DNA from: Balneolaceae bacterium
GTDB lineage: Bacteria > Bacteroidota > Rhodothermia > Balneolales > Balneolaceae
Assembly (NCBI GenBank): GCA_007693745.1
Contig: REDA01000074.1
Coordinates: forward strand, 1-50,995
Reading direction: 5' to 3'
Length of the DNA: 50,995 bases
Both the position numbers and the translations under genes were made by a program. Numbering within the stretch: the stretch's first letter is position 1; each line of letters begins with the position of its first letter. Under the pieces are notes generated by a model. The model had not been told where the DNA came from. It saw only the letters and a program-made list of their open reading frames with translations, and did no database searches. Shown here piece by piece: positions 36,012 through 37,025 of the stretch.

Positions 36012-36013
36012 CC

Positions 36014-36090
36014 CGGATTAATAGAGTATATCCCATACCCTAACGCGGGTATAAGAATATCGCGGATTAATAGAGTATATCCCATACCCT
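36014..36090. repeat. two exact 28-nt direct repeats, 49-nt period
   Basis: Positions 36014-36041 and 36063-36090 are identical over 28 nt (begin CGGATTAATAGAG, end CCCATACCCT). The 21-nt stretches after each copy differ, but both hold a C/G palindrome (ACCC...GGGT; CCCT...GGGG). The second copy runs into GGGGCAACATCAATA, the core shared with the units at 36541-36737, so these belong to the same repeat family. Confidence 0.85.
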
Positions 36091-36127
36091 GTAGGGGCAA
36101 CATCAATAAAGCCCAAATCTATGTTCT

Positions 36128-36173
36128 CTTTGTTACTTTTGCCTTGATGCAAAAGTAACCAAAAGATCAAGGC
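36128..36173 (+). repeat. palindromic element, left copy
   Basis: Contains a perfect 10-bp stem GTTACTTTTG/CAAAAGTAAC (36132-36141, 36150-36159) with an 8-nt loop, then CCAAAAGATCAAGGC. Reads like the element at 36791-36838 in the opposite orientation (see that entry), so the two are inverted copies of one family. Confidence 0.75.
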
Positions 36174-36175
36174 TG

Positions 36176-36320
36176 TGAACCGCGTGGCGGGTCGTGTTCA
36201 GGTGGAACGCTGCACCCATTTAAGGTCCAAACCGGGCAGCCCCGTCACCACTGAAGAGCCGGTAGAAATGGGCGCGGACGCGTTCCACCTGAACACTAAA
36301 TACACCCGCCCCACGGTTCA
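36176..36320. repeat. 145-nt long inverted repeat (cruciform-forming)
   Basis: Three nested arm pairs: 36176-36192 with 36304-36320 (15 of 17 matched), 36194-36210 with 36280-36296 (17 of 17, GTGTTCAGGTGGAACGC), and 36215-36221 with 36266-36272 (CCCATTT/AAATGGG), with a smaller inner pair ACCGG/CCGGT (36231-36235, 36259-36263). No coding sequence fits it. As RNA or single-stranded DNA this would fold into a long rod. It starts 2 nt after the left palindromic element. Confidence 0.85.
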
Positions 36321-36540
36321 AGGCCGGAGGGGATGTTTTTTCTATGGGTACCTCCCATAAACGGATAAACTTATAAACGCATAAACTATCTAAAGATTCA
36401 CACCGATGTGCTCCGCTTTTATCTCGCCAGACCATTCAAGGCCGGGATGTCTGAGGCTAAGCTTAAGGATAAGGTTGAGGGTCGCCCGGTATGTAGAGCG
36501 CCATGAGGAGCCCAGCGACAAATAAAGTCGAGACATCTCT

Positions 36541-36737
36541 ATGCCCCAACAGGGCTGCATCAATACAATCGGATGGATATTCAATTTTCCATGCCCTGAA
36601 GGGGCATCATCAATAGGATCCGTATGGATCCATAGTCTCCATTGCGCTGAAAGTGCAACATCCGTGAAAAATTTGACATCGTATCCCTATGCCAACAAGG
36701 GCAACATTGATACACCCCCAACCTTCGGTCAAGCCAC
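36541..36737. repeat. degenerate tandem units of 48-50 nt with palindromic core
   Basis: Four consecutive units: 36541-36590, 36591-36640, 36641-36688 and 36689 to about 36737. Each starts ATGCC or ATTGCG, has a small stem of the CCCTGAAGGGG kind, then GCAACATCAATA or a variant. Units differ at many positions, including within the stem, but stem pairing is mostly kept (GCCCTGAAGGGGC; GCGCTGAAAGTGC), hinting at selection for structure. Related to the 36014-36110 copies. Confidence 0.75.
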
Positions 36738-36790
36738 CTCTGTACCTTAGAATTGGACACGCCAGAAACAAGAAACCAGAAACCTAAACC

Positions 36791-36838
36791 GCCCTTGAAC
36801 TTTTTGGTTCTTTTTGTTTCAAGACAAAAAGAACAAAG
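36791..36838 (-). repeat. palindromic element, right copy (inverted)
   Basis: Perfect 11-bp stem GTTCTTTTTGT/ACAAAAAGAAC (36807-36817, 36824-36834) with 6-nt loop. Read on the minus strand it aligns along its whole length with the left element 36128-36173 (both CTTTGTT..TTTTTG.CTTGA..CAAAA.., ending CAAGG(G)C). The two inverted copies enclose about 0.7 kb. Confidence 0.75.
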
Positions 36839-37025
36839 AAACATTTCAATCACTCACCACCCCTACCAATAAGGCAAAAGTAAGAAGAAGAAATATTCTA
36901 ACTCCGCTACGCTACGTGGGAATCGCTTCGCTCGGTGCACCCCGACAGGTTTGTCGGGACTGTCGCTGCGCTCCAGCTTCGCCCGGTACGCTTTGTAGTT
37001 CTGCGCTATCACTACGAATCACTTC

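Follow-up and report, generated by a model that had tools for sequence, protein, structure and literature searches.

Two hairpin-forming elements lie in inverted orientation on either side of 0.7 kb of non-coding DNA in the stretch analysed here (hereafter, the window; 50,995 nucleotides of a contig from a Balneolaceae bacterium), and the arrangement raises the question of whether they bound a single mobile unit or are separate members of a dispersed repeat family. The first-pass annotation had placed them at 36128–36173 and 36791–36838. Both are real, homologous and perfectly paired, with coordinates that are slightly refined here. The left hairpin, on the plus strand, has a perfect 11-bp stem (36132–36142 paired with 36149–36159) closed by the loop CTTGAT, and the right hairpin, on the minus strand, has an equally perfect stem of 11 bp (36807–36817 with 36824–36834). 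The elements form inverted repeats over 38 nt (36127–36164 versus 36802–36839) with 82% identity. At three of the 11 stem pairs the two copies have different bases, and in each case both partners of the pair are altered (A-T/C-G, C-G/T-A and C-G/T-A). The DNA folding z-scores are −4.3 for the left hairpin and −2.3 for the right, both folding better than most shuffled sequences, and shuffling the window 100 times gave no match to the pattern of the right hairpin.

The left element proves to be a complete copy of a structured repeat of about 200 nt, built from a hairpin and a long bulged stem and dispersed in this bacterial family. The repeat covers 36127–36327, which is the part common to the aligned full-length copies. 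A linker rich in A connects the hairpin to a long imperfect palindrome that has (A/T)TCAAGG and TTCAAGGCCGG as its limits; beyond these limits the copies carry differing sequence or other repeats. Its features are the following.

36127–36166, plus strand: 5' hairpin module of the complete repeat, with the stem given above, apex CTTGAT and the A-rich linker; its pairs covary across the genus.
36166–36172, plus strand: left (A/T)TCAAGG direct repeat flanking the palindrome, kept in nearly all aligned copies.
36171–36327, plus strand: long imperfect palindrome forming the structured core, with conserved motifs GTGAA, TGGCGG, AAGGTCC, GCCGGTA, CCGCC and TTCAAGGCCGG.
36194–36296, plus strand: inner perfect stem of 17 bp, GTGTTCAGGTGGAACGC/GCGTTCCACCTGAACAC, present in two covarying versions within the genome.
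36317–36323, plus strand: right TTCAAGG direct repeat, seen in the sequence and in the aligned copies.

The genome to which the window belongs (2.87 Mb in 100 contigs, 95.5% complete) was searched for further copies. The left stem occurs at 17 places, and a BLAST query restricted to 36100–36345, rather than the full 0.7-kb block, returned 66 pieces; the genome contains some 14 full-length copies and many fragments. The repeat is therefore multi-copy, where the earlier annotation had named occurrence as single copies only as an argument against a mobile family. A large number of copies are found close to or at the ends of contigs (C13, C23, C25, C56, C57 and C78); the repeats have probably broken the assembly, so that the copy number is an underestimate. 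About six copies in this genome (L085, L087, L089, L092, L095 and L096) carry a structured insert of 67 nt (TCGAAGGAAAAACACAAGTGCC...GAGCAGAGCGAGCG) at one fixed site between hairpin and palindrome. Folded as RNA, the window copy (36127–36330) reaches −100 kcal/mol with a z-score of −7.96.

Exact-sequence searches of relatives, of the phylum, of named genomes and of viral contigs returned nothing outside this genome, and relatives were accordingly reached by covariance model alone. With a model of the palindrome, 16 of 26 genomes of the genus were positive, and a broader model extended this to 42 of 92 genomes, in 10 of the 21 genera of the family. The conserved pieces are the apex CTTGA, ATCAAGGC-GTGAAT, TTGGCGG, AATGGTCCAT, GCCGGTA, CCGCCAA and ATTCAAGGCCGG. 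Covariation was assessed on 29 sequences against a hand-written structure, with controls in which the partners were slid by 1–3 columns. Overall, 92.6% of cells are paired. Both partners vary in 17 of 29 pairs, amounting to 86 cells with both-side changes as compared to 13–25 in the slid controls; the hairpin stem likewise varies in a paired fashion across the genus. A copy from one relative (G005) also folds strongly as RNA (z −7.29). The proposals that the elements form a dispersed, structured and mobile family, and that their structure is under constraint, are supported by the copies here and in the family and by paired changes in many of them. No reading frame is open across the 29 aligned cores, the maximum in any frame being 11 of 29. 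Rfam gave no match at E ≤ 1 for 12 copy-carrying loci of this genome, and no credible match within the window block.

The same core is found within MITEs in at least 10 related genomes, where it is enclosed by terminal inverted repeats (TIRs) of 12–14 bp and target-site duplications of 8–10 bp. The TIRs are of two types, GAGGA(C/G)TTACCCC or CTGACATTACCC. In G005 the core sits inside MITEs of about 340 bp that end in GAGGACTTACCCC and GGGGTAACTTCTC; nearly all of 20 TIR-bearing copies from this genome have target-site duplications of 8–10 bp, and mismatched flank pairs never reached 8 matches of 9. In nine more G005 copies the core is of another version, and the MITEs have TIRs CTGACATTACCC/GGGTAATGTCAG and duplications of about 10 bp. 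A blind scan recovered TIRs with duplications in nine other genomes (G006, G012, G014, G016, G019, G020, G418, G433 and G439), as compared to none of 55 swapped flanks used as a control.

Several variants were observed among the relatives. MITE copies of G005 that are otherwise almost identical (L250–L258) differ in the hairpin that occupies one shared position (TTTTGTCTTGAAACAAAA, CCCGACGCTTCGGGAC or a hybrid), which gives the impression of exchange by conversion or template switching. Two larger G005 MITEs with the same TIRs (L182, 286–1014, and L184, 296–916, in query orientation) have another hairpin near the 3' end, and L184 includes a reverse-strand stretch similar to the core (ATGGACCATTCG). 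In a core copy of G022 (L168, 440–505) the usual hairpin is replaced by TCATCCTGAATTTATTTCAGGATCTCAAGG, an unrelated stem-loop with the same TCAAGG end.

The MITE copies allow the core to be compared with the sequence that surrounds it. Within one G005 subfamily of 15 copies, private substitutions occupy 6 of 158 sites in the core, against 29 of 125 in the arms and 8 of 30 in the core terminal loop, among copies that had been found via the core, a selection that biases the test towards conserved cores. Divergence shows the same contrast between core and rest. This suggests that constraint acts on the folded core after insertion. We infer that the constraint would reflect recognition by something of the core folded as a single strand, whether RNA or extruded DNA, because two types of MITE carry the core and because it varies less than the remainder of the MITE. 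A tentative interpretation, which we consider possible rather than probable, is that the core represents a previously undescribed signal of about 200 nt in this bacterial family, either structured RNA or folded DNA, that is transported by at least two kinds of DDE-type MITE and is under selection where it has inserted.

A more specific proposal is that the core is a functional structured RNA, that is, a small RNA or transcribed regulatory element working at each site and hitch-hiking on the MITEs. The covariation together with conserved unpaired motifs, the depletion of private substitutions in the core and not in the arms or terminal loop of the same copies, and the sharing of the core by MITEs with different TIRs are all consistent with such a role. 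However, those copies were selected through the core, Rfam offers no match, and the presence of the core is patchy even inside the genus (16 of 26). Moreover, G-U and A-C mismatches number 14 versus 21 when one fixed pair is set aside; they show no strand preference, so that an RNA role is not favoured and RNA and DNA structure are not distinguished. From the sequence comparisons, we regard a functional RNA as a rather doubtful, if reasonable, candidate.

The palindrome could instead be neutral DNA, with arms kept complementary by template switching or gene conversion between arms or copies. The exchanged hairpins of near-identical G005 copies (TTTTGTCTTGAAACAAAA versus CCCGACGCTTCGGGAC) would fit such a process, as would the occurrence of the inner stem as two haplotype blocks within the window's own genome. 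It does not, however, account readily for the conservation across the family of unpaired motifs (the apex CTTGA, AATGGTCCAT and CCGGTA), nor for a terminal loop that is free to vary between stem flanks that are not, and on these grounds it appears unlikely.

As for the means by which the core is moved, an indication comes from G012, in which one of the TIR types, in the form GGAGTTACCCCATTTT, also terminates a gene fragment for the C-terminal part of a transposase, present in three copies at contig ends. This fragment has weak matches, almost all of them to IS4/IS701-like DDE transposases, at sub-threshold Pfam scores that lie below the curated cut-offs. The fragment is confined to G012, with no match in plasmids. 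A search for a complete autonomous element found none, and the TIR loci examined in G005 carried only other MITEs. The association of the TIR with the transposase fragment and the DDE-like matches make a DDE transposase acting in trans on the TIRs likely, and the core would spread through such enzymes.

In the window's own genome, no TIR or duplication above the swapped-flank control was seen around 13 copies out to 1 kb, and none was found around the G022 copies. The suggested likeness to a MITE is therefore seen in relatives, with their TIRs and duplications, whereas no such ends were found for the copies of this genome, that of the window included, and descent of the latter from MITEs is drawn from the relatives only. 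These copies look like decayed relics, or else use ends that are not recognised. They would have lost their TIRs and duplications and would survive today as repeats between genes, accumulating into patchworks such as that at 36014–36892. Considered as a whole, the observations are probably best explained by a structured repeat, similar to BOX, for which DDE-type MITEs serve as carriers and of which the local copies have decayed.

The first-pass annotation had also suggested a REP/BIME-like unit, with a RAYT (a Y1 HuH transposase) supplied from another locus. Genes resembling RAYTs with a Y1 domain are present in 24 of the 26 genomes of the genus, and in Bacteroidetes atypical structures flank the RAYTs of subclass 2.6 (PMC6006769), both of which could be counted in favour of this suggestion. 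The Y1 transposase family PF01797 is nevertheless absent from the window's own genome at its 95.5% completeness, neither core nor hairpin motif is found near the 10 top-ranking RAYT loci from the genus, and the core is about 200 nt long with visible ends that are TIRs with target-site duplications. To our knowledge, HuH single-strand transposition does not produce ends of this kind. Mobilisation by a RAYT is accordingly very improbable. The REP palindrome itself, of 20–40 nt with a conserved tetranucleotide foot, was considered as a candidate and rejected; the repeat described here spans about 200 nt, and its hairpin is nearly always followed by the palindrome or by the 67-nt insert.

The right element provides the second part of the answer to the question posed at the outset. 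It is a copy reduced to its hairpin, in which the palindrome between the TTCAAGG repeats is missing. The hairpin is joined straight to TTCAAGGGCGG and a tail that is also found behind complete copies, and of the 22 hairpins present in 172 kb examined from this genome no other runs directly into the 3' end. Such a copy may have arisen through deletion between the TTCAAGG repeats, as expected of slippage at a long palindrome. The sequence around and between the two hairpins contains the following further features.

36014–36108, plus strand: two copies of a different palindromic repeat (CGGATTAATAGAGTATATCCCATACCC..., GGGGCAACATC type).
36425–36490, plus strand: fragment from the 3' end of a further copy (CGCCAGACCATTCAAGGCCGGGAT...GAGGCTAAG), together with the tail of that copy, identified by sequence comparison.
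36538–36708, plus strand: four more degenerate copies of the CGGATTAATAGAGTATATCCCATACCC/GGGGCAACATC repeat family (CCCTGAAGGGGCATCATCAATA type).
36714–36790, minus strand: 3' tail of the second copy (GCGGTTTAGGTTTCTGGTTTC...), common to the tails of other genomic copies.
36791–36839, minus strand: solo hairpin of the second copy, its stem (coordinates above) running directly into TTCAAGGGCGG.
36871–36892, minus strand: 5'-end fragment (TTCTTCTTACTTTTGCCTT) upstream of the solo hairpin, which precedes several complete copies elsewhere.

The block is housed in the interval between a PhoPQ-related gene and a GBBH-like gene (window 36012–37025), and the repeat patchwork spans 36014–36892, with neither hairpin marking its end. 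In one relative, a 417-bp MITE bounded by the same TIRs as the core-bearing MITEs (L172) carries as cargo a palindrome similar to the CCCTGAAGGGGCATCATCAATA-type repeat. The corresponding interval of G022 and G009 contains two small genes (of about 115 and 56 codons) and no repeats; both genes are missing here, and the comparison is one of gene replacement and not of a clean empty site. Since its interior is made up of other repeats and fragments, the 0.7-kb block is not a unit bounded by the hairpins but a patchwork of several dispersed repeat families and their fragments. The hairpins had been taken for terminal copies of one 0.7-kb unit, and they are indeed homologous and inverted, but this reading is scarcely tenable. 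At other loci, complete copies stop at TTCAAGGCCGG, some 200 nt beyond the left hairpin, and different sequence follows; the interior is built of fragments of several dispersed repeats; and the repeat on the left is one copy and the solo hairpin on the right another, with neither TIRs nor a target-site duplication flanking the block.

Bacterial MITEs are usually viewed as empty shells between terminal repeats. The repeat described here, in the favoured interpretation of a structured core carried by DDE-type MITEs, contrasts with that picture in having a folded core of about 200 nt that recurs in ten genera, within different MITE ends, and changes less than the MITE that surrounds it. The question of whether MITEs carry structured signals that are read by the cell, or structure that serves transposition, is thereby made testable, and the patchworks of intergenic repeats in draft genomes become decodable by covariance models rather than by sequence alone.

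Among known systems, the structured RNAs of mobile elements in Rfam (HEARO, for instance) are similar in being structured, of comparable length and present in many copies, but no Rfam match connects them with the core. REP/BIME elements with RAYT (TnpA-REP) share many-copy extragenic palindromes and hairpin structure, and differ in that the present repeat is about 200 nt long, has TIR and target-site-duplication ends, and is accompanied by no RAYT in the genome or beside the core in relatives. MITEs mobilised by DDE-type insertion sequences (RUP and Nezha, for instance) are likewise short and non-coding, with TIRs, duplications of 8–10 bp and a TIR shared with a transposase gene, features that here apply to the relatives, the last as a gene fragment in G012; unlike them, the copies in the window's own genome show neither TIR nor duplication, and the internal core is conserved across genera and TIR types. 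The BOX elements of Streptococcus pneumoniae are assembled from A, B and C modules, and pairing between their TIRs contributes to the folded structure (Croucher et al. 2011, PMC3049150). In contrast to BOX, with which sequence was compared through Rfam only, the repeat has one internal core of about 200 nt that is common to MITEs with two TIR types. Like BOX, it forms dispersed intergenic repeats with extensive covarying structure, a modular organization, TIRs with target-site duplications (in the relatives) and lone modules, and its mobilisation in trans, as inferred here, parallels the presumed movement of BOX by the transposase of an insertion sequence. By analogy, the pneumococcal BOX family, together with MITEs in general, is the closest known counterpart.
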